In this document: positions 2 through 11,289 of the stretch, in pieces
How positions within the stretch are numbered: the first letter of the stretch is position 1
How the letters are laid out: the number at the start of each line of letters is the position of its first letter
DNA from: Pseudonocardia parietis
Lineage (GTDB): Bacteria > Actinomycetota > Actinomycetes > Mycobacteriales > Pseudonocardiaceae
Assembly: GCF_017876315.1 (NCBI RefSeq)
Contig: NZ_JAGINU010000001.1
Coordinates: forward strand, 124,001-188,000
Reading direction: 5' to 3'
DNA length: 64,000 nt
Translations under genes and position numbers: made by a program
Notes under the pieces: model-generated
Seen by the model: the letters and a program-made list of their open reading frames with translations, nothing else
The model's database searches: none
What the model was told of the DNA's origin: nothing

Positions 2-472
2 GAGGCCGGCGTGACGACCGGCGCCCTCCAGCACCATTTCCGCACGAAGGACGAGATGTTGCTGTTCGCGCTCGAGCACCACGGCCGGCGCTGGGCCGAC
101 CGGCTACACGCCCGGGCGGACCGACCGGGCCCACCGGCCCCGCCCCGGCGGGTGCTGGAGGCCGTCGTCGAGGAGCTGCTCCCACTCGACGACGAGCGCA
201 CCGCAGAGGCGGCCGTGGCGATCGCGTTCACCCTTCGCGCCGCGACCCGACCGGCTCTCGCGGAGCACTACCGCCGACAGCGGGCCTTCCTGCACGAACT
301 CGTCGCCGCCCAGTTCGCCCGGGCGGCCGTGACGAGCCCCGCCGCGGCAGCCGACCTGCTCCTCCACGCCCTCGACGGGATGCGGACGGACTGCCTCGTC
401 CTGGGCCCGGGCTCCGTCTCCGTCGAGGCACTGCTCGACCGGCTGCTCCCCCCGGCCGCCGCCGAGCAGTGA
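2..472 (+). CDS. TetR-family transcriptional regulator, 5' truncated by window edge
   Basis: The reading frame is open from base 2, so the start lies left of the window. The first visible residues (EAGVTTGALQHHFRTKDEM) are the end of a TetR helix-turn-helix, including the recognition helix and the usual F-x-x-K-x-x-L/M tail. About 130 residues of alpha-helical ligand-binding domain follow to a TGA stop. Such proteins are dimeric repressors that let go of DNA on binding a small molecule. It stops 111 bp before the CPBP protease gene on the same strand. Ligand and targets cannot be told from what is visible. Confidence 0.85.
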   Translation, partial: EAGVTTGALQHHFRTKDEMLLFALEHHGRRWADRLHARADRPGPPAPPRRVLEAVVEELLPLDDERTAEAAVAIAFTLRAATRPALAEHYRRQRAFLHELVAAQFARAAVTSPAAAADLLLHALDGMRTDCLVLGPGSVSVEALLDRLLPPAAAEQ

Positions 473-583
473 GGATCCCGTCCACCGTGCCGGAACACGC
501 CTCCTGCGTCTTTCGATGGCACCCGGGACCTTCGATCCTTCGCATCTCGTGCCGGCACCCCGCCGGATCCGAGACTTCCTCCC

Positions 584-1504
584 ATGACGATCTCGAATCG
601 AGCCCCTCAGCGGACCGGACCCACTACGCCCGTGCGGGACGGGGGCGGGGGCGTGCTCGGAGTGGTCCGGCGCTATCCGCTGATCAGCTTCTTCGTGCTC
701 GCCAACGTCATGAGCTGGCTCGCCTGGATCCCCTACATCCTGTCGCAGAACGGCCTCGGGATCTGGGCCTACCGGTTCCCCGACATCCTGGGCACGAGCC
801 AGCTGCTCGGGGTGCTGCCCGGGGCCTACCTCGGCCCGATCGCGTCGGCGCTGTTCATCACCGCCGTCGCGGACGGGCGCGCCGGGCTGCGGCGCTGGGT
901 CGGACGGATGTGGCGCTGGCGGGTCCGCTGGCACTGGTACGCGATCGCCCTGCTCGGCGTCCCCGCGGCCATGCTGGCCACCGGCTACGCGTTCTCCGGC
1001 GGGCAGGTGAGCGCCCCGTCGATGATGGCGGTCGCCGCCTACGTCCCGGGGCTGATCCTGCAGATGGTCACGACCGGCCTCGCCGAGGAGCCCGGCTGGC
1101 GTGACTTCGCGCTGCCCCGCCTGCAGAACCGGTTCGGTCCGCTGGCCGCCTCGATGGTGCTGGGACCGATCTGGGCCCTCTGGCACATGCCGCTGTTCCT
1201 CACCGAGTGGGGCGGCTTCCCGGACGCGGACTGGACCCGCCCGGTGTCCTTCGCCGTGTTCTGCATCGCGTTCAACTTCGTCATGAGCTGGGTGTTCAAC
1301 CGCACCGGGGAGAGCCTGCCGCTGTCGATGCTCGCGCACGTCAGCGTGAACAACTTCGCCTCGATCATCTGGTCGGAGATGTTCCCGACGATCGACGAGA
1401 ACCTCGCGTCACACGCCATGGCGACCGGCGCGGTCGTCGCCGCCGTGCTGGTCCTGGTCGGAACCCGCGGACGGCTCGGATATCCGGGGCCCCGTGCCGC
1501 ATGA
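584..1504 (+). CDS. CPBP-family intramembrane metalloprotease
   Basis: A 306-residue membrane protein with about seven or eight hydrophobic segments. It carries the CPBP (Abi/CAAX protease) motifs in order: E-E-P-G-W-R-D near residue 168 (EExxxR), L-W-H-M-P-L near 200, and H-V-S-V-N-N near 252 (HxxxN). In the family the glutamates and histidines form the active site inside the membrane. Bacterial members are linked to peptide maturation, bacteriocin immunity or signalling, but the substrate here is unknown. The ATG start is chosen because the protein then begins with a short polar stretch before the first membrane segment. It converges with the response-regulator gene, sharing a hairpin with it. 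Confidence 0.85.
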   Translation: MTISNRAPQRTGPTTPVRDGGGGVLGVVRRYPLISFFVLANVMSWLAWIPYILSQNGLGIWAYRFPDILGTSQLLGVLPGAYLGPIASALFITAVADGRAGLRRWVGRMWRWRVRWHWYAIALLGVPAAMLATGYAFSGGQVSAPSMMAVAAYVPGLILQMVTTGLAEEPGWRDFALPRLQNRFGPLAASMVLGPIWALWHMPLFLTEWGGFPDADWTRPVSFAVFCIAFNFVMSWVFNRTGESLPLSMLAHVSVNNFASIIWSEMFPTIDENLASHAMATGAVVAAVLVLVGTRGRLGYPGPRAA

Positions 1505-3689: not shown

Positions 3690-3944
3690 ATGAGCAGCAC
3701 TCCCACCACCACCGGTACGCACCACGACACCCCGGCGCGCGGGGTCCCGCGCCGCCTCCTGTGGGTACTCCTGGCCGCCGCCGTCGTCGCCAACGGCATC
3801 TGCTCGCTGGCGGGGCTGCCGTTCGTCGGGTCGGCGTTCGGCGTCCTCGCGCTCGTGGCCGGTGGGTTGCTGGTGCGCGACCACTACCGGCGTCGTGCCC
3901 GGACGGAGGTCGGTCACGCGCCGTCGGGGCGCCCGGCCGCCTGA
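3690..3944 (+). CDS. Small two-helix membrane protein, function unknown
   Basis: An 84-residue protein preceded by a good ribosome-binding site (GAGAGG, 7 nt before ATG). A polar N-terminus rich in Thr and His is followed by two hydrophobic helices (about 26-40 and 45-65) with a short loop, then a basic tail H-Y-R-R-R-A-R. I recognise no family. It is divergent from the histidine-kinase operon across about 220 bp, so that two-component system is a plausible regulator. The 3' end of the gene (3920-3967) is repeated imperfectly at 5285-5333 in the scar region. Confidence 0.6.
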   Translation: MSSTPTTTGTHHDTPARGVPRRLLWVLLAAAVVANGICSLAGLPFVGSAFGVLALVAGGLLVRDHYRRRARTEVGHAPSGRPAA

Positions 3945-4011
3945 TCCCGGGTGTCGTCGTGCCTGCGGCGAGCTGCGGCCGGTCGATCTCCGGGCGGCTA
4001 CGGTCGGCGCG

Positions 4012-4663
4012 GTGCTTCCCGTCCCGCCCCGGCTCACACCGAAGCAGCGCACCTTCCTCGACGCCTGGCTACCCGGCGCCGAGTTCGTGCGCGACCGCTC
4101 CTGGGGCCTGATCGGCACGACCGTGCTCCAGCTGCGGTGCGCCGGGCAGGACCTCATCGTCAAGGCCGGCGACGACGCCGACACCCACATCGCCCGCGAG
4201 CTACGCGCCCACCGCGAGTGGCTCGGTCCGCTGCACGGGCGCGTACCCGAGCTCGTGCACGCCGACGACGAGGCGAAGGTGCTGGTCACGCGCTACCTGC
4301 CGGGTGTCCTCGTCGAACGCGATCCGGCCGAGAACCACCCGGACACCTACTGGCAAGCGGGGCGGCTGCTCGCCCGGCTGCACGGCCAGTACGCAGCCGT
4401 CGACGACCGCTACGAGGCCCGCATGCGCGACCGCGCGTGGAAGCACCTGGCCGGACCGCACAGCATCGACCCGGACACCGAGGCGCGGCTGCGTGCCGAG
4501 ATCGTGTCCTGGCCGGACGGACCCGCGTGACCGGCACACCTGGCGCCGGGAACGTCTCCGCGAGGCGATCGGCACCGCGGTCTGGGCGTACCAGGTCGGG
4601 GACGAACGGTTTGAGCGCCACGGCCACCGGATGGTCGCCGAGGCGCTCGACCCCCCGGACTGA
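4012..4663 (+). pseudogene. Aminoglycoside-phosphotransferase-like kinase, internally deleted and frameshifted
   Basis: A GTG at 4012 opens a frame of 172 residues that reads as the N-lobe of an APH/choline-kinase-fold enzyme (T-T-V-L-Q-L-R, L-I-V-K-A-G, R-E-L-R-A-H, R-L-H-G-Q) and stops at 4530. The family C-terminus continues in the +1 frame (R-R-E-R-L-R-E-A-I-G-T-A-V-W-A-Y-Q) to a stop at 4663. The catalytic block with the H-x-D-x-x-x-x-N loop and the D-F-G-like motif is absent between them, so roughly 80-100 residues are deleted near 4510-4535. The product cannot be an active kinase. A second, shorter fragment of a related gene lies at 5170. Confidence 0.7.
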
Positions 4664-4846
4664 CCCTCAGCCCGGCGCCGGACCCTCCGTCGCCGTTCGC
4701 CGCGCACGTCTTCGGCTACGGCGACGAGGAGCGGGCCCGCACCCGGGCGGCGTTGCTGAGCCGGTGAGCGGGCCGCCCGGTAGCGGCGCACCCGTCCCGA
4801 CGGGTCCGACCGCATCAGACGCTGAACACGCGCGCCCCGGCAGGGG

Positions 4847-5113
4847 TCACGCCTCGCCCGGGACGCGCCCGTCCAGCCGCAGCGGCGCACCGCCGTTGTG
4901 GCGCTCCGCGACAGCGTCCGGCCCCTTGGAGATCAGCTGCGCGAGGTTCGCCGCGTGCCCGTGCCCCAGGCCGTACTCCGCCTTGAGCCAGGCGACGATC
5001 TCGCCGACCTTCGCCGTGGTGAGGCAGCGCTCCTGCGCCAGGTCGAGGAACGCCCGCGGGGTGATGCCGGTCCGCGCCTCTGCGTTGTCGAGGTAGGTCT
5101 GAAATCCGCTCAT
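4847..5113 (-). CDS. DUF4287 domain protein
   Basis: An 88-residue protein beginning M-S-G-F-Q-T-Y-L-D-N. The sequence T-G-I-T-P-R-A-F-L, then E-I-V-A-W-L-K, then Y-G-L-G-H-G-H-A is the characteristic DUF4287 pattern: a small all-helical domain sometimes found alone and sometimes fused to DUF5655. Its function is not established. I chose the internal ATG at 5113 because family members start just before this motif; an in-frame start 22 codons upstream exists. The gene sits alone among degraded fragments. Confidence 0.75.
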   Translation of the reverse strand: MSGFQTYLDNAEARTGITPRAFLDLAQERCLTTAKVGEIVAWLKAEYGLGHGHAANLAQLISKGPDAVAERHNGGAPLRLDGRVPGEA

Positions 5114-5169
5114 ACCGATATGGACCGGACCCGGGTCCGGATCTGACCGGTCCATTCGGAAAGATCGCT

Positions 5170-5271
5170 GTGATGCCACTCACCTCGACCCGGTCCGCCC
5201 TGCTGGAGAGCGGGCTACCCGGCGCCGACCTCGTGCACGACCACAGCTGGGACCTACTCGGCACTACAGCC
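5170..5271 (+). pseudogene. N-terminal fragment of a second phosphotransferase-like gene
   Basis: About 34 residues (L-L-E-S-G-L-P-G-A-D-L-V-H-D-H-S-W-D-L-L-G-T-T) match, position by position, the start of the broken kinase at 4012 (F-L-D-A-W-L-P-G-A-E-F-V-R-D-R-S-W-G-L-I-G-T-T). The similarity then stops and the frame runs into a copy of the 3' end of the small membrane gene. It is a relic, not a gene. Confidence 0.55.
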
Positions 5272-5338
5272 CATACCAGTACATGCCGTCAGGGCAGTCG
5301 GCCGCCTGATCCCGGGGAGGTCGTCGTGCCTGCCCCGA

Positions 5339-5521
5339 TCAGGAAGCGACCTCCTCGACCTTCGCTCCGTCGGCGGCCTTCTGCACCGACTCGCACCCCT
5401 TGTGCGCGGCCGACCTGCTCTCGTAGGCCTCACCGGATGCGACGACCTGTCCGTTGCTCGCCTTCAGGCGGAACCGGAACTTTCCGGCCCGATCTTCGTA
5501 GACCTCGAACTTGCCTGCCAC
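5339..5521 (-). CDS. YegP-like DUF1508 protein
   Basis: A 60-residue protein with the single-repeat DUF1508 pattern: G-K-F-E-V-Y-E-D near the start, F-R-F-R-L-K-A-S-N-G-Q-V-V-A-S-G-E-A-Y, then K-G-C-E-S-V-Q. Proteins of this family form a small beta-sheet and helix fold and are of unsettled function, often stress-associated. A GTG at 5521 is chosen because GTGGAGG lies 5-10 nt upstream and family members start M/V-A-G-K-F; an in-frame GTG four codons earlier would overlap that ribosome-binding site. Confidence 0.8.
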   Translation of the reverse strand: MAGKFEVYEDRAGKFRFRLKASNGQVVASGEAYESRSAAHKGCESVQKAADGAKVEEVAS

Positions 5522-5617
5522 GGGAACCTCCACAGTGCTCGTTGAGCGTGATCATCGGCTGATGATCTGGAGGCGGGTACCCAGCGCGCGACGCGGCGAA
5601 TCATGGCGCAACGGTCC

Positions 5618-7642
5618 TCAGCCCGGGGCCGGGCCCTCCGTCGCCTGCAGGTCCCCGGCGGGAAGCCGGTCGGCGCCCCAGCTCCGCTCGATGTAGCCGA
5701 TGATCCGGGCGATGTCCTCGGCCTGCACCTTCTCCTTCTCCCCGTGCTCGAGCGGGTCGACGTGGAAGATGTAGAGCCGCGACGCGAACTGGTCGAACGG
5801 CAGCGACGCCTCGCCGAACCGCTCGCCGTTGCCCGCCGTGGACACCACGACGCCGTCGCCCCAGTCCTGCCCGCTGTCGTTGTTCGGGTTGTAGAAGTAC
5901 ACCCGCATCACGTCCTGCGGGTCCGGTGCGACGCGCAGGATCGTGATCGCGTGCCAGCCGACGTAGCGCGCGGCGCTGTCGGTCACCGCGATACCCGCAG
6001 GCTGCGGGTGGATCAGCGGCTGCCCGCCGTTGTACGACGGGTGGTAGCTCGCATGGAACTGCCGCAGGAAGTCGTCGAGGTCGATCAGGTTCCCGGTCGC
6101 GACGTCGACGTTGATGTGGAACCCGCGGGCGGCCCACCAGCCGTGGAACTCGGGGTTCACCCAGCGGTGCGGGTCCCCGGGCCGGTCGGCGCACCGGCGG
6201 CCCATCTCGGCGTAGATCCGGTCCAGGTGCGGCACGACCAGCAGCGACACCGGGTCGAGATCGACCGGCAGCGTCTGCGCGACCCCGGCCGCGCTCTCCT
6301 GCGAGGAGATCCGCTGCCCCTCGAAGTGCATGATGATCTCGTCGTCGCGGGCCGCCCAGACGACCATCTGCAGCAGGTAGTCCGGGTCGTTGTACGCCCA
6401 CATCGACAGTGCCCGCGCCGACTGGCAGGTGGGGTTGTCGCCCTGCCCGACGCCCAGCGGCAGCCCGAGCATCGACAGCACACCGGCCAGCAGCCGAGCG
6501 TTCGGTGACGGCTCGTCGCCGAACGCCGCGACCAGCCGTTCCCGGGCCGCGGGCGAGAGCTCGAGCGCGATCTGCCGCCACAGCGACGGGACGATCGGCG
6601 GCTCGTGCAGAATGCCGCGGTCGAGGAGCAGGGCGAGCCCGTAGATGCACTGGGCGGTCTGCGGGGTCACCGCCTCCTCGATCAGCCGGTGCACCAGGTC
6701 CCGGTAACGGAGCAGGCAGTTCTTGCCGGTGTCGGACAGTCCGAGAGCCTCGGCGATCAGGTAGTCGCTCTCGTGCCGCAGGAACTGCAGGAGATCCGCG
6801 TGATACGGCGACACCAGCCCGGTGTCGTGCATCGCGCGGGCGAAACCGGACGCCTCGTACTGCAGGCCACCGGTGTCCATCGCCTCCAGCCGGGACCGGA
6901 AGACCTCGATCCCCGGGTCCTCCCGGCACGCCTCGGTGGTCCCGAACAGCGCCGTGATCAAGCGGTCCAGGCCCTGCCCGGCCGACAGGTCGACATCCGG
7001 GTCGCCGCGCCACACCGACAGCCGGGTGATCAGCGACTCGACCTGGTCCACCTGGATCGGGCGCTGACGCAGGATCCGCCAGATCTCCTCCACCAGCTTG
7101 TCGAGGACGACGTCGTAGCCGACCCCCTCGGCCACGTGCCGGAACAGGTCCCGGATCAGCTGCGCGGTCCGCCCCTGCCGCGTCCGCTCCGCCTCGCTGG
7201 GCGGGGTGAACAGCAGCTCCAGGTTCATCGCCAGCACCTGGGACAGGAACTCGCGCGCGTCCTCCGGGGCGAGGGTGGGGTGCACGTAGTCGCCGCAGGC
7301 GACCGCGAGCGTGCGCAGCTCGCTGGTCGCCTCCATGACCACGGTGTCCGCGTCCCCGCTGTGCAGGCCCGGCCCGACCAGGGACGGGACCAGGATCTCC
7401 GGAGTCGCCCAGTCCGTCCCGAGGAACAGGCCGGCCTCCTCCAGCTCCTGGGCCCGGGCCTGGACGCCTGCGGCGCCGCCCGGCTGCAGCAGCACCCGGC
7501 GCAGCTGTTCGAGGACCCGCCGCAACTTCGTCGTCTTGCCGAAGTCGGCGGTCCGGGCCAGGGCCCGGGTGGCGTCGTCGAGCGAGGCCAGGCGCTTGTC
7601 CAGCACCGAGTCCTCACCCGCGACGTCGGCGGTCGGTTTCAC
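5618..7642 (-). CDS. 674-residue protein of unknown function, possible papain-like C-terminal half
   Basis: I do not recognise this family. Residues 1-390 are mainly helical and Leu/Arg/Glu-rich, without membrane segments or signal peptide. The C-terminal half has three spaced motifs that resemble a cysteine-protease/transglutaminase-like triad in the order Cys, His, Asn/Asp: G-D-N-P-T-C-Q-S-A-R-A-L-S, then Y-V-G-W-H-A-I-T-I-L-R-V, then V-Y-F-Y-N-P-N-N-D-S-G. This is a reading of motifs, not a match to a known enzyme. It follows the ATP-grasp ligase gene by 57 bp on the same strand, so the two are probably one operon. The start is GTG with GAGGGA upstream. Confidence 0.6.
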   Translation of the reverse strand: MKPTADVAGEDSVLDKRLASLDDATRALARTADFGKTTKLRRVLEQLRRVLLQPGGAAGVQARAQELEEAGLFLGTDWATPEILVPSLVGPGLHSGDADTVVMEATSELRTLAVACGDYVHPTLAPEDAREFLSQVLAMNLELLFTPPSEAERTRQGRTAQLIRDLFRHVAEGVGYDVVLDKLVEEIWRILRQRPIQVDQVESLITRLSVWRGDPDVDLSAGQGLDRLITALFGTTEACREDPGIEVFRSRLEAMDTGGLQYEASGFARAMHDTGLVSPYHADLLQFLRHESDYLIAEALGLSDTGKNCLLRYRDLVHRLIEEAVTPQTAQCIYGLALLLDRGILHEPPIVPSLWRQIALELSPAARERLVAAFGDEPSPNARLLAGVLSMLGLPLGVGQGDNPTCQSARALSMWAYNDPDYLLQMVVWAARDDEIIMHFEGQRISSQESAAGVAQTLPVDLDPVSLLVVPHLDRIYAEMGRRCADRPGDPHRWVNPEFHGWWAARGFHINVDVATGNLIDLDDFLRQFHASYHPSYNGGQPLIHPQPAGIAVTDSAARYVGWHAITILRVAPDPQDVMRVYFYNPNNDSGQDWGDGVVVSTAGNGERFGEASLPFDQFASRLYIFHVDPLEHGEKEKVQAEDIARIIGYIERSWGADRLPAGDLQATEGPAPG

Positions 7643-7699
7643 ACAGCTTCCCTCGTTCAGGTCTTCCCCGTCCTCCGGTGTCCCCGCTGACGGGGGCCC

Positions 7700-8941
7700 T
7701 CAGACGTAGAAGTCGAGTTCTTCCTGCTTCTTCAACAGATCGCGCATCCGGTACGGATCATCGCCGAAGAAGTAGAGCAGACCCCAGTGGGTGCCGAACG
7801 CGGTCCTCTTGGTGACCGTCTCCTCCATCGGGGCCGAGAGGTCGTGCGACTCGTAGTAGTCGTCGTCCTCGGTCTCCTCCGGGATCTGCAGCTCGCTGAC
7901 GACCCGGCGACGCGGGTAGACGCCGAAGCAACCCGCCACGCCCTCGGCGTCCTCGACCTCGGTCGGGAAGAAGGCGTCGATCTCCTCCTCGGTGGTCTTC
8001 GGGTCGAACGCCAGCACGAGCGCCTGGTAGGCGTTGAAGCCGTACGCCCGCTCCAGCAGCTCGAAGACCCGGAAGCCCGGCGGCCGGTACGCCACCTCGC
8101 CGAAGTACATCTCGCCGTCGGAGGTGACGAAGTACTCCGGGTGCACGAACCCGAACTCGATGTCGAAGGTCTTGATCAGCTTTTCGATCTGCGCGGTGAT
8201 CTGCGGCCGGTACCGCTCGAGCTCCGGCGTCGCGGGGACGAACACCGAATACCCCAGCGTGACGTATTCGGATATGTTCAGGAACTTGATCTTCCCGTTG
8301 TGGATCCAGGCCTCGACGGCGAACTCCCACCCGTCCAGGTGGGATTCCATCAGGACCGGGAACTCCTCGTCCGGAATCGTGTCGACCTCGTCCGGCGTGC
8401 GGATGACGCGATGCCCCAGGCAACCCGCCTTGTCGAACGCCTTGAGGTGGATCGGGTCGTTCGGGTCACCGGCCAGCTTGAGCAACGTCTGGTTGACCCG
8501 CTTGAGGAAGCGGATGACGTCGTCCCGGTCGTGGGCCTCCTCGAAGATTCCCACCCGGATCCCGCCCAGCTGGGCCCGGCGCTTCATCAGCGCCTTGTCC
8601 CGCAGCAGCATCGCCTGGCCGAACAGCCTCGGGTTGTCCATCAGCACCGAGTTGATCGCGCCTGCCCACTCGACCGTCTCCTCGAACAGCGGGATCGCGA
8701 CGTCGACGCCCATCTCCTGCAGCGTCTCGGCGATCTCCCCCGACCGGTCGTTGATCCGCTCGAAGTTCCACGGGACATACGGGATCTCGTGTTCGGAGCA
8801 GTACTCCTCCGCCCAGTCCGGGGCGACGACGACATATCGCCGATCGAAACGATCGAGTGCCTCGACCGCACTGAGACTCCACCCGAGGAGCGCGACATAG
8901 CCCTTTTCAGGGTTCCTGCTGACCGATTCGGGCCGGGGCAT
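7700..8941 (-). CDS. ATP-grasp domain ligase, substrate unknown
   Basis: A 413-residue ATP-grasp enzyme of the carboxylate-amine/thiol ligase kind. After a pre-grasp alpha/beta domain (L-L-G-W-S-L-S-A-V-E-A-L-D), it shows K-x-x-x-K-R-R (start of the grasp), H-L-K-A-F-D-K-A-G-C-L-G (nucleotide lysine), L-M-E-S-H-L-D-G-W-E-F-A-V-E-A, and the metal-binding F-G-E-V-A-Y-R-P-P-G. Family members activate a carboxylate as acyl phosphate and join it to an amine. GGAGGA 9 nt before the ATG supports the start. Codon choice is visibly more A/T-tolerant than in neighbours (for example around 8255-8285), hinting at transfer. It heads a two-gene cassette with the 674-residue protein. Confidence 0.85.
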   Translation of the reverse strand: MPRPESVSRNPEKGYVALLGWSLSAVEALDRFDRRYVVVAPDWAEEYCSEHEIPYVPWNFERINDRSGEIAETLQEMGVDVAIPLFEETVEWAGAINSVLMDNPRLFGQAMLLRDKALMKRRAQLGGIRVGIFEEAHDRDDVIRFLKRVNQTLLKLAGDPNDPIHLKAFDKAGCLGHRVIRTPDEVDTIPDEEFPVLMESHLDGWEFAVEAWIHNGKIKFLNISEYVTLGYSVFVPATPELERYRPQITAQIEKLIKTFDIEFGFVHPEYFVTSDGEMYFGEVAYRPPGFRVFELLERAYGFNAYQALVLAFDPKTTEEEIDAFFPTEVEDAEGVAGCFGVYPRRRVVSELQIPEETEDDDYYESHDLSAPMEETVTKRTAFGTHWGLLYFFGDDPYRMRDLLKKQEELDFYV

Positions 8942-9035
8942 GCAACAATTCCTCCCGTTTCAGCGCATCCCATTCAATGGGGCTTCCCGCCGGACCCTAC
9001 CCCGACCGCCTTTACCGGGCCGATCCTGGCGGACG

Positions 9036-9974
9036 TCAGCTCGGACCGGCGTGCTCCTCAGCGAGGACGACGAGCCGCCGCAGCCGGCCCGCGACGGCGT
9101 CCTTCGACATCGGCGGGTCGGCGAGCAGCCCCAGCCGGGACAGTGACAGCGTCGCGTGCTCGACCCGCAGCAGACCGGCGGCACGCAGGTGTGACGGCGC
9201 CCCGGCCCCCAGCACGTCGAGGGCCCAGCGGACCCGCGCGGTGGTCCGGTCGGCGGCCTCGGCGGCGCGGCGGGCGTTCACGGTCTCCAGCGACGCGCTC
9301 GGTGTCGACGGCACCGGCGAGGCGACGTCCGCGCAGCGGCGCAGCACGTCCGCCACGCCCTCGGCACCGGTCGCCCGCAGCAGGGTGTCCACGCTCTCCG
9401 GGTCCCGGACGACGACCCGGTGCTCGGTCGCCGTCTCGTGCCCGGCAGCCAGCACACCGAGCGCTCGGGCCGCACCGACCAACGCGAGGACGACGGCGGG
9501 CCCCGGGCAGGTCACGTGGATCCGGGCCCGTCCGGACGGCCGCACGATCCGCCCCCTGGCCAGGAGCGCCCCGCGCCACACGCCCGCCGCGACGGCCGCC
9601 CCGCCGCCGACGACGGCAGGAGGCAGACCGAGGACCGGCCGGCCCAGCCGGTCCACCAGTCCGGTCGCCCGCGCCAGGTCGGACCCGCTACCGGTCACTT
9701 TGACGAAATAGCGCAGCGGTCGCCCGCCCGCGGTGACGACGTCCGTGCGGACCGCCGCACGACCGTAGAGCTCGGTCAGCTCGCGGCACAGCCGGACGGC
9801 GAGCTCCGGAGCGGGGAACTCGGCCCGGACGACGGTGTGGCCACCGGTCGCCGTCAGGTCGCCGGCGAGCCGTAGCTGGGTGACGACGCCGGCCTGCCGG
9901 ACCGCAGGGCGCTCCTCACGGACGGCGCCGAGCTCGCGGTGCAGCTCCGCGGTGATGCGCTCGGGGTCGAACAC
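9036..9974 (-). CDS. WhiA-like DNA-binding protein (paralogue)
   Basis: A 312-residue protein with WhiA layout: a degenerate LAGLIDADG-like N-terminal region (G-V-V-T-Q-L-R-L-A-G-D-L, E-L-Y-G), the block V-L-G-L-P-P-A-V-V-G-G-G, C-P-G-P-A-V-V-L-A-L-V-G-A-A-R, and the C-terminal helix-turn-helix with H-L-R-A-A-G-L-L-R-V-E-H and D-P-P-M-S-K-D-A-V-A-G-R-L-R-R. WhiA controls sporulation septation with WhiB in actinobacteria. The genuine whiA normally sits after rapZ-yvcK; none is here, so this is likely a divergent paralogue. The GTG at 9974 follows AGGAGAGG. Confidence 0.8.
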   Translation of the reverse strand: MFDPERITAELHRELGAVREERPAVRQAGVVTQLRLAGDLTATGGHTVVRAEFPAPELAVRLCRELTELYGRAAVRTDVVTAGGRPLRYFVKVTGSGSDLARATGLVDRLGRPVLGLPPAVVGGGAAVAAGVWRGALLARGRIVRPSGRARIHVTCPGPAVVLALVGAARALGVLAAGHETATEHRVVVRDPESVDTLLRATGAEGVADVLRRCADVASPVPSTPSASLETVNARRAAEAADRTTARVRWALDVLGAGAPSHLRAAGLLRVEHATLSLSRLGLLADPPMSKDAVAGRLRRLVVLAEEHAGPS

Positions 9975-10054
9975 GAACCTCTCCTGCCGTGCACACGGGG
10001 CGGGGGCCACGTCTCCCGCGAGGCGGCCACGTCCCGCCGGACGGACGGGACCGG

Positions 10055-10258
10055 TCAGGCCACCCCGCCCGGATCGGCGTGCATGGGACACCGCGGATCG
10101 ATGCAGGGGTCCTCGACGGACCCGGAGCGGTACGCGGCGTTGGCCAGTACCGAGCACAGGCAGCCACGGGCCTTCGCCCGGGCCCCGCCGGGAACCAGGT
10201 CGTCGGGCACCCCGGGTTCCGGGCGTTGCGCCGCCCGCTCGCTCGTACCGTCCGCCAT
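10055..10258 (-). CDS. Small Cys/His protein, possible zinc-binding
   Basis: A 67-residue protein with a strong ribosome-binding site (GGAGGGGG) before its ATG. The C-terminal half holds G-C-L-C-S-V-L-A-N-A-A-Y, then D-P-C-I-D-P-R-C-P-M-H-A: four cysteines and a final C-P-x-H that could bind a metal. I recall similar short proteins in actinobacteria and their phages but no assigned function. It lies 80 bp upstream of the WhiA-like gene on the same strand and may be cotranscribed with it. Confidence 0.55.
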   Translation of the reverse strand: MADGTSERAAQRPEPGVPDDLVPGGARAKARGCLCSVLANAAYRSGSVEDPCIDPRCPMHADPGGVA

Positions 10259-10370
10259 GGGTCCCCCTCCGCACGCGGCACGCCCGGAGCCCTACGAGAG
10301 GCCCGTGCGCATGTACACTCAGTCACCGATTGATTGCACACCGTAGCGCATCTGCCGGTCGGCCCGGGAG

Positions 10371-10394: not shown

Positions 10395-11102
10395 CTATTT
10401 CGGCTCGGCACTCACCGGGAGGGGTGCCTCGGGGTCGAGGACGAGCCCGTTCTGTCGCGCCAGGCCGTCGATCTGGGCCCAGACCAGGAGCGCGAGGTGC
10501 TCCGCGACGACCTCCCGGTCGAGGGAGCGGTGCACCAGCCACCACTCCGCGGTCGCCTGGACCGACCCGACCAGCGACTGGGCCCAGACCTGGACCAGCT
10601 CCGGCGCGTCGAACCCGAGCAGCTCGACGTAGCGGCCGAGCAGCCCGGCCAGCGCGTCGGAGATGAACGCCCGGCCGGCGTCGACGACCTCGCCGCCCTG
10701 TCCCGGCAGCCGGCGCCGGAACAGCAGGTGCACGTTCGGGGAGTCGTCGAGGAAGCCCAGGAAGGCGCTCACCGAGGCGTGGATGCGGTGCCGGACCACG
10801 CCCTCGTCGTAGATCGCGGGCATGAGCCGCTCCATCAGGCGGTTCGTCGCCCGCTCCGCCATCGCGTCGAGCAACGCCGCGCGGTCCCCGAAGTGGCGGT
10901 AGATCACCGGCTTGGTCACCCCGGCCTGGTGCGCGACCTGGTCGAGCCCGAACTCCTGACCCTCCCGGCCGAGGACCGTCAGCGCGGCGTCGACCAGCTG
11001 CTCACGGCGGCGCGCACGGTGGGCGTCCCAGCGCGCACTGCGGCCGTCGGCCGGGCGTCCCGCACGAGCGGGACGGCTGTCGGGACGGTCGGCGTCGGAC
11101 AC
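10395..11102 (-). CDS. TetR/AcrR-family regulator
   Basis: A 235-residue repressor. The N-terminal helix-turn-helix reads F-G-L-D-Q-V-A-H-Q-A-G-V-T-K-P-V-I-Y-R-H-F-G-D-R with the canonical Y-R-H-F. The helical C-terminal domain includes F-L-G-F-L-D-D-S-P and a W-A-Q-S-L-V-G-S-V-Q-A stretch, as in the TetR_C domains of the AcrR group. I place the start at GTG 11102, which has GGAGG 12 nt upstream; an in-frame GTG at 11153 lacks one. It is divergent from the quinone oxidoreductase gene, a possible target. Confidence 0.85.
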   Translation of the reverse strand: MSDADRPDSRPARAGRPADGRSARWDAHRARRREQLVDAALTVLGREGQEFGLDQVAHQAGVTKPVIYRHFGDRAALLDAMAERATNRLMERLMPAIYDEGVVRHRIHASVSAFLGFLDDSPNVHLLFRRRLPGQGGEVVDAGRAFISDALAGLLGRYVELLGFDAPELVQVWAQSLVGSVQATAEWWLVHRSLDREVVAEHLALLVWAQIDGLARQNGLVLDPEAPLPVSAEPK

Positions 11103-11289
11103 GGTCGCGATGATCCTCCATCGGCTGTCTGCGCGCGTCACGGCGAGGAACACGAACCCGGCCGGGCGCGGTCGCCAGTTGATCAGGTGCTCGTCCCCGG
11201 GACGGCGCCCGGGCGCGGAGACCGTCGCACGGATCCGGCCGGGCCGGGCGTGACAGGCTGCACCGGGACGAGGACACGAGGAGGCGCTG

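Follow-up and report, generated by a model that had tools for sequence, protein, structure and literature searches.

An ATP-grasp ligase and a candidate cysteine enzyme of papain-like type form a two-gene system in Actinomycetota and Gammaproteobacteria

Two adjacent genes in a 64,000-nucleotide stretch of the Pseudonocardia parietis genome (the whole of which we refer to as the window), encoding an ATP-grasp ligase and a partner protein, are a real two-gene system. We put the probability at about 0.48 that the two proteins work as a module of two enzymes on a single amide-linked product, both making and processing it, a reading for which we infer the activities, a shared small-molecule substrate and the direction of the reaction.

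The ligase and partner genes occur as a unit

The first gene of the pair (7700..8941, minus strand) has an ATG start and encodes the 413-residue ligase, while the second (5618..7642, minus strand) has a GTG start and encodes the 674-residue partner. The 57-bp gap between them (7643..7699, minus strand) contains a purine-rich stretch ahead of the partner's GTG, and, judged by eye, purine-rich sequence precedes the ligase start as well. In both respects, a preliminary description of this DNA had been accurate: it placed two open reading frames (ORFs) on one strand, 57 bp apart (ligase, 8941 to 7700; partner, 7642 to 5618), and called their start signals good. A search of positions 4600 to 9400 for riboswitches and other RNAs returned nothing at an E value of 0.5.

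The same description was mistaken in regarding the codon choice of the ligase as foreign. Compared with 35 window genes for proteins of at least 200 residues, called with a simple GC-based finder, the ligase has a GC3 of 0.920 (window mean, 0.923) and ranks at 51% in codon distance; its codon use is native to the genome, and a foreign origin as judged by codon use was rejected. The lower G+C content of the ligase gene stems from protein composition (GC2, 0.366).

That the two genes belong to a single system, as proposed beforehand, was borne out by their homologues, which, far from never occurring with the ligase, were found side by side with it in all 80 best-matching named loci, from Actinomycetota and Gammaproteobacteria. 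The pair was likewise present in 20/20 loci of one series (L024 to L043), in addition to the window's own, with both genes interrupted in L040 and the ligase cut by the contig end in L042. Strong matches to the ligase and to the partner fell in identical sets of genomes in two samples, 18 of 200 genomes of the family (after removal of weak hits in G131 and G069) and 11 of 398; with the two weak hits kept, both counts become 19/200 and the sets differ by one genome each. Tree distances of the two proteins were correlated (Mantel r of 0.89, shared descent included; 0 of 500 shuffles as high). Around 17 Proteobacterial ligases, both genes were found in 14 loci (nine in the usual order, four head-to-head and one reversed), with the ligase lacking a partner in L156, L159 and, at a contig end, L155; conversely, a partner copy stands alone in three genomes. 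Such unpaired copies of either gene always occurred in genomes that also hold a complete pair. The pair is common: in one genome collection, at least 586 stretches with the motif pattern were confirmed as homologues of the partner, possibly two per locus. Two further candidates (L044 and L045) were discarded as chance, being weak matches of some 75 to 150 residues within or opposite other ORFs. None of the papers listed in searches of open-access literature was recognizable as describing the pair.

No third specific gene recurred beside the pair, either in the flank clusters or in a list covering the two ORFs closest to it on each side in 49 loci. Recurrent flank clusters were spurious frames or generic superfamilies, for example ABC ATPases (at most 17 other loci) and short-chain dehydrogenases (14). 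A link to an amino-acid ABC transporter, hinted at by L058, L116 and L119, was rejected: genes for a binding protein, a permease and an ATPase stood together upstream, on the cassette's strand, in one Streptomyces and four Halomonadaceae loci out of 119. An unmasked scan for small ORFs was dominated by low-complexity Arg/Pro-rich frames; once these were masked, the most widespread small frames in the 700 bp on either side of the pair (top six per side, a scan that fast-diverging or distant short peptides could escape) were confined to Halomonadaceae. Inspection by eye picked out isolated loci with an ORF nearby that is TIR-like (L028) or with ORFs that are transposase-like (L049 and L066). Ectoine synthase was found in 17 of the 18 cassette genomes versus 138 of the 182 others, which is suggestive at most of a link with osmolytes.

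At fourfold third positions, the window agreed with Gammaproteobacterial loci L097, L119, L124 and L162 at a level of 0.39 to 0.51 (chance, 0.45 to 0.48) and with the more distant Actinomycete loci L089, L105, L106 and L110 at 0.41 to 0.57; this near-chance agreement ruled out recent transfer alone as the source of the ligase similarity. The tree does contain signs of transfer, such as the placement of rows from Streptomyces and Rhodococcus within the Pseudonocardiales. The pair was absent from the viral contigs and phages searched, and no sign of a phage or virus origin was found. A single plasmid record carries both genes; another 13 plasmid matches to the ligase, at <60% identity, were read as other ATP-grasp proteins.

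The first gene encodes an L-amino-acid-ligase-like ATP-grasp protein

On the basis of conserved residues and similarity to solved members, the ligase is an L-amino-acid-ligase-like member of the ATP-grasp group, with amide ligation as its putative activity. It had been credited with full ATP-grasp motifs, which holds for the key residues and less so for the profile score: the match to PF13535 (ATP-grasp_4; 23.7 bits, E value of 4e-5) lies under the curated cut-off of 27, as does the 25.3-bit score from the genome search, and the match to NF005543 (E value of 1.9e-6) is far under the cut-off of that model. Profile matches to L-amino acid ligases were obtained with 3vot (E value of 0.0043) and 4wd3 (0.0059). 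Across 120 aligned rows, K155, K167, H267, E269, E282 and R286 show no substitution, gaps aside. From knowledge of the ATP-grasp family, we take the lysines and Gly-rich loop of residues 155 to 179 (8405..8479, minus strand) to bind ATP and H267, E269, E282 and R286, within residues 267 to 289 (HPEYF...GEVAYRPPG; 8075..8143, minus strand; covered by the 3vot/4wd3 alignment), to be metal or phosphate ligands. The structure model of the ligase is too poor to use (pLDDT, 55.6).

In all five genome pairs compared, of which two span phyla, conservation of the ligase exceeded that of EF-Tu, although silent sites there are near saturation. A protein more conserved than EF-Tu yet present in about 1 in 10 related genomes (18/200) is an unusual combination, and one that points to a single specific, strongly constrained reaction.

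The partner may have a papain-like C-terminal domain

The preliminary description presented the partner as an unrecognized protein with a helical N-terminal half and three motifs in papain order. Unrecognized it is in every family library searched: Pfam, NCBIfam and PADLOC models gave no match to the 674-residue protein at an E value of 1, and Peptidase_C2 (PF00648) was found neither there at 1 nor among 15 members of the partner family at 5. The Pfam search of the partner and 15 members likewise contained no CHAP domain; the members matched five families, one member each (best, tPilZ at 0.015), all chance-like and none named a peptidase. Five chains from a PDB profile search (E values of 0.56 to 0.91), all within the range of the helical half, were also chance-like. 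Alignment with one bacterial calpain, P0003 (hhalign, with a shallow profile on one side and one sequence on the other), gave a probability of 0.9%; the P0003 sequence itself shows a Gln six residues before the Cys, His-Ala and Asn-Pro.

Conservation, on the other hand, upheld the three motifs. In the stretch Gln400-Gly-x4-Cys406 (Q400-G-D-N-P-T-C406; 6425..6445, minus strand), Q400, G401 and C406 are present in 117/117 aligned rows, and H564 (in G-W-H-A-I-T; 5951..5953, minus strand), N585 and P586 (in N585-P-N-N-D-S-G-Q-D-W594; 5861..5890, minus strand) are present in 116, the exception being the frame-broken L040; the residues of all three motifs are kept down to approximately 50% identity. 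In papain and calpain, the Gln-to-Cys spacing is about 6 residues. Q400, C406, H564 and N585 follow the Gln/Cys/His/Asn order of the papain superfamily, with the Gln at that distance, which makes them the putative oxyanion-hole Gln, nucleophile, catalytic His and third catalytic residue, respectively. Numerous further His and Asp residues show the same, or nearly the same, degree of invariance in these rows.

In the AlphaFold2 model (mean pLDDT, 76.5), the helical half announced earlier is seen at residues ~8 to 393 and is followed by the C-terminal domain at ~400 to 631 (both within 5618..7642, minus strand). Cys406 is modeled at the N terminus of a helix, His564 in a strand and Asn585 just after the next strand; the Cys loop (399 to 405) has a pLDDT of <50. 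Residues 368 to 631 matched calpain cores weakly (Z of 6.2, 201 residues, rmsd of 4.7), and a Z below 8 may, by the tool's own statement, reflect merely a common arrangement. VIA-align listed 50 entries, and calpains and one bacterial cysteine aminopeptidase account for all of these that span the C-terminal domain. The N-terminal matches resemble generic repeats of helices. Neither phytochelatin synthase nor CHAP folds stood among the listed fold rows, an absence that excludes neither, and Foldseek gave no match to the model at an E value of 0.001. Predicted secondary structure and the weak fold match would place the motifs in a papain-like core rather than far apart. Together, these models weakly suggest that the C-terminal domain is papain-superfamily-like, nearest to calpain-type cores. 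For a protein without family assignment, the analysis offers a probable catalytic class as well as a companion that is nearly always present.

A candidate synthetase/amidase or synthetase/transferase pair

In the reading that we prefer, the ATP-grasp enzyme would turn a carboxylate, most likely that of an amino acid or a small peptide-like acid, into an acyl phosphate before joining it to an amine. Cys406 of the partner, aided by His564 and Asn585 and with Gln400 in the oxyanion hole, would form a thioester with that product or the following one, and the acyl group would be released by hydrolysis or handed on. The absence of a recurring extra specific gene suits such a self-contained reaction. 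Two features, the large helical N-terminal half of the partner and the extreme conservation of the ligase, could however be a better fit for a protein substrate than for a small molecule. The unit, consisting of two genes, can be directly deleted, moved and assayed.

The main rival, which we consider somewhat unlikely, concerns such a protein substrate: the ligase would tag a cellular protein with an amino acid or short peptide, which the cysteine enzyme would take off again. The helical half could bind protein, the strict pairing in identical genome sets would fit, and conservation above that of EF-Tu in all five pairs is expected of a ligase held by macromolecular contacts; however, no recurring neighbor could be the target, and the patchy distribution (18/200 family genomes) argues against an essential, universal one. 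A wider claim, that bacteria possess here a reversible protein modification whose writer is the near-invariant ATP-grasp enzyme and whose eraser is a new member of the papain superfamily, a stand-alone unit spread between phyla and acting on a conserved cellular protein, strikes us as less likely again.

It is improbable that the partner is no cysteine enzyme at all and serves the ligase as a scaffold or binding subunit, its conserved residues being structural or metal binding. While the missing family or profile match to any peptidase, the weak calpain-core Z and the abundance of further invariant His and Asp residues would allow this, it is opposed by the agreement between the predicted fold, the order of Cys, His and Asn and a spacing that is exactly Gln-x5-Cys. 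We give slightly less credence still to the maturation of a ribosomal peptide, with the ligase cross-linking a precursor and the cysteine enzyme removing its leader, as in graspetides, in which ATP-grasp ligases are reported to form lactam and lactone links (PMC8939145): the most widely shared of the small frames listed were confined to Halomonadaceae, no transporter recurred with the pair, and a nearly invariant ligase runs counter to what is expected of enzymes of diversifying products. Finally, an antiphage defense or toxin-immunity pair is the least probable reading, since the patchy distribution, the tree signs of transfer and the TIR- and transposase-like ORFs near single loci are outweighed by the lack of any PADLOC family for both proteins at an E value of 1, the absence from viral contigs and phages, the one plasmid record, the nonrecurrence of those neighbors in the 49 loci listed and the very slow evolution of the ligase protein.

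Relation to described systems

The preferred reading, a synthetase paired with an amidase or transferase, most resembles glutathionylspermidine synthetase-amidase (GspSA) of Escherichia coli and trypanothione synthetase-amidase, in which an ATP-dependent amide synthetase and a papain-superfamily cysteine amidase act on the same amide (PMC6272389, PMC10318531); GspSA is described there as bifunctional, with an N-terminal Cys59 amidase and a C-terminal synthetase working via an acyl phosphate (PMC6272389). GspSA differs in combining its synthetase and a CHAP-type amidase in a single fused protein. The cassette encodes two proteins, which would be of other families: Pfam gave no CHAP match, the N-terminal half of the partner is predicted to be helical, and the ligase stands closer to L-amino acid ligases. 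With the latter (PDB entries 3vot, BL00235, and 4wd3), the ligase shares the ATP-grasp central region, including the aligned H-x-E...E-V-A-x-R stretch, but only ~115 residues align (E values of 0.004 to 0.006), the score is under the Pfam cut-off, and the ligase here is strictly paired with a cysteine-type partner. Similarly, the partner resembles calpain and cluster I papain-like peptidases in the Gln six residues before the Cys, in His-Ala and Asn-Pro and, weakly, in fold (Z of 6.2) but differs from them in having no Peptidase_C2 match and a probability of only 0.9% against the single calpain P0003.

Two further systems combine enzymes of these kinds. The transglutaminase-like fold is related to that of papain. 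In the Anbu operon, the genes for an ATP-grasp enzyme, an alpha-E protein, a transglutaminase-like protein and Anbu are found together, so that an ATP-grasp enzyme is likewise paired with a transglutaminase-like protein (PMC6376114). The cassette differs in lacking a specifically recurring third gene alongside. In tubulin tyrosine ligase and vasohibin, the tubulin detyrosinase, the writer is an ATP-grasp enzyme and the eraser a transglutaminase-like cysteine enzyme. This writer/eraser division would be the likeness to the cassette; the difference is that the tubulin system is eukaryotic and has a known protein target.

Pairing and distribution of the two genes

In an 8.1-Mb genome (G000:C1:124001-188000), the gene for the ATP-grasp ligase (8941-7700, minus strand; an ORF of 413 aa) is followed, after a gap of 57 bp, by that for its partner (7642-5618, minus strand; an ORF of 674 aa). 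By the standard of the window, codon use in the ligase is ordinary, and not foreign as the preliminary description had it. Among 200 genomes of the same family, the partner query and the ligase profile gave strong matches in the identical 18 (Fisher P = 5e-26, kinship of genomes ignored), with one weak match each, in different genomes, left out of these counts. In a phylum-wide sample of 398 genomes around a Halomonas centre, too, both genes were found in the identical 11. The ligase adjoins the partner in the window's own locus, in all 20 fetched loci L024 to L043 (cut by a contig end in L042) and in all 80 named loci, the best 80 of at least 586 confirmed stretches (cut by a contig end in L078 and aligned in two pieces in L096); the two sets share at least four records. 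Ligase and partner are one system, and the earlier reading of the cassette as a ligase/cysteine-enzyme system, for which a neighborhood survey of homologues had been proposed, stands. With true matches in 4 genomes of a phylum-wide sample of 396 (the window's genome counted, two weak matches excluded), and with the pair in 6 of 11 sampled genomes of the genus, these counts and those from the family and the Proteobacteria therefore describe a cassette that is broadly spread yet patchy.

Both genes were present in 14 of 17 Proteobacterial loci, comprising ordinary and diverged copies, and were arranged in the usual order in nine, head-to-head in four and reversed in one; that the pair persists despite altered gene order adds to the evidence that the two genes are functionally linked. 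The other three loci (L155, at a contig end, L156 and L159) hold a ligase without a partner, and three genomes (G674, G742 and G778) hold one partner copy without a nearby ligase match. Since such lone copies exist, in genomes that also carry a complete pair, strict adjacency is shown to be dispensable where there is a pair elsewhere. Second copies in several Proteobacterial genomes have 73 to 77% (ligase) and, where the partner is present, 50 to 51% (partner) identity to those of the window, and two genomes (those of L157 and L171) contain only a diverged pair (ligase, 76 and 81%; partner, 56%). In L040 (G101:C1:3592000-3611000), one of the 20 fetched loci, the ligase is interrupted by an in-frame stop and the partner by a change of frame, through either joint decay or sequence errors.

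Putative active-site residues and family assignment

An alignment of 117 partner rows, of which at least five are duplicates (that of the window included), shows no variation at Gln400, Gly401 or Cys406; His564, Asn585 and Pro586 occur in 116 rows, all but that of L040, whose frame is broken. A Gln placed six positions ahead of the Cys, followed by His-Ala and later by Asn-Pro, is the arrangement found in calpain-type enzymes of the papain superfamily; papain and mammalian calpain have the same spacing, which is directly visible in the bacterial calpain sequence P0003. In an AlphaFold2 model (mean pLDDT, 76.5), Cys406 opens helix 407-418, directly after a loop (399-405) with a pLDDT under 50, while His564 lies within strand 561-573 and Asn585 just past strand 579-584. 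Foldseek returned no matches to this model at an E value of 0.001. VIA-align 2 aligned model residues 368-631 with calpain cores (Z, 6.2; rmsd, 4.7; 201 residues) and also matched a bacterial cysteine aminopeptidase (Z, 5.6), both weak by the tool's own note; the highest Z of any row (6.3) belonged to the N-terminal half, which matched a helical repeat.

The partner had no matches in Pfam, NCBIfam or PADLOC at an E value of 1 or among PDB sequences at 10. Its profile gave only chance-like PDB matches (E values of 0.56 and up), and the comparison with P0003 failed (0.9%). Fifteen diverse members, searched one by one against Pfam, matched five families, each in a single member and none a named peptidase. 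We conclude that the partner is probably papain-superfamily-like, judging by residue pattern and predicted fold, and that it lies outside every named family tested. The ligase matched Pfam ATP-grasp_4 under the curated cutoff, and its profile aligned over about 115 residues with L-amino acid ligases 3vot and 4wd3 (E values of 0.004 to 0.006); Lys155, Lys167, His267, Glu269, Glu282 and Arg286 show no substitutions in 120 rows, gaps aside.

Neighboring genes and mobile DNA

When the flanks were compared all against all, the only recurring genes belonged to close synteny groups or generic superfamilies, and no specific third gene emerged; the nearest two ORFs per side vary by genus across 49 loci, and the most widely shared small frames near the pair are confined to Halomonadaceae. 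An apparent association with a transporter failed on further comparison. Searches of viral contigs and phages did not find the pair, and among plasmids it occurred in one Halomonas megaplasmid only.

Upstream in the window, a divergent WhiA-like protein with three WhiA Pfam domains (9036-10274, minus strand), possibly paralogous to the sporulation regulator, is preceded by a TetR-type regulator gene (10395-11153, minus strand). The WhiA-like ORF ends 94 bp ahead of the ligase, so that one promoter could serve both it and the cassette; by eye, the ligase has a similar ORF in front of it in L024, L027 and L048. Downstream lie small DUF1508 (5339-5521) and DUF4287 (4847-5179) proteins, both on the minus strand, and a DUF4287-like ORF was also seen by eye in L024 and L025. 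Two plus-strand frames (5170-5290 and 3862-4530), without Pfam matches at an E value of 0.001, have in common a 36-residue stretch (44% identity), as if one were a truncated repeat of the other's start, and may be what was previously described as a scar region. In eight Halomonadaceae loci (L114, L116, L119, L120, L123, L124, L125 and L127), the 700 bp upstream of the ligase are conserved in several frames and might represent an RNA gene; in L124, this DNA appears by eye to lie near dnaX/YbaB-like genes.

Evolutionary history

Tree distances of ligase and partner correlate (Mantel r = 0.89, relatedness left in; none of 500 shuffles as high). In a quick tree of the partner, all Gammaproteobacteria cluster in a single supported group next to rows from Nocardia and Mycolicibacter, and Streptomyces and a Rhodococcus/Williamsia group fall among Pseudonocardiales, a pattern that we read as suggesting several transfers of the pair, with paralogy as a possible alternative source. 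The cyanobacterial tree label of L106, a Rhodococcus MAG record, was taken as a labelling glitch. With EF-Tu as the sole reference protein, ligase identity to the window's genome exceeded EF-Tu identity in all five genomes compared: Saccharopolyspora hirsuta (93.0% versus 83.5%), Nocardia cyriacigeorgica (86.6% versus 83.2%), Rhodococcoides fascians (87.9% versus 82.7%), Oceanimonas (89.2% versus 76.1%) and Halomonas alkalisoli (84.2% versus 73.6%). The partner changes faster (67 to 84% identity in the identical comparisons). Because the window agrees with four Gammaproteobacterial loci at near-random levels in fourfold-degenerate third positions (0.39 to 0.51; random, 0.45 to 0.48) while ligase identity is high, the ligase is under very strong purifying selection, and the transfer is old on the scale of silent change.

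Proposed function and nearest precedent

ATP-grasp ligases of this type form an acyl phosphate first and an amide next, and papain-type enzymes form a thioester that is then hydrolyzed or transferred. The ligase would accordingly yield an amide product via an acyl phosphate, and the partner would form a thioester for hydrolysis or transfer. Because the two enzymes are co-inherited without a third gene, the simplest and most likely view is that both would act on one common product; that the substrate is a peptide is a guess. The main rival, in which the ligase writes a tag on a protein and the partner erases it, is favored by the helical half of the partner and the rigidity of the ligase sequence. 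For two enzymes sharing one product, the closest precedent is glutathionylspermidine synthetase/amidase, in which a synthetase is combined with a Cys59 amidase that is reported to be ten times more active without the synthetase domain (PMC6272389).
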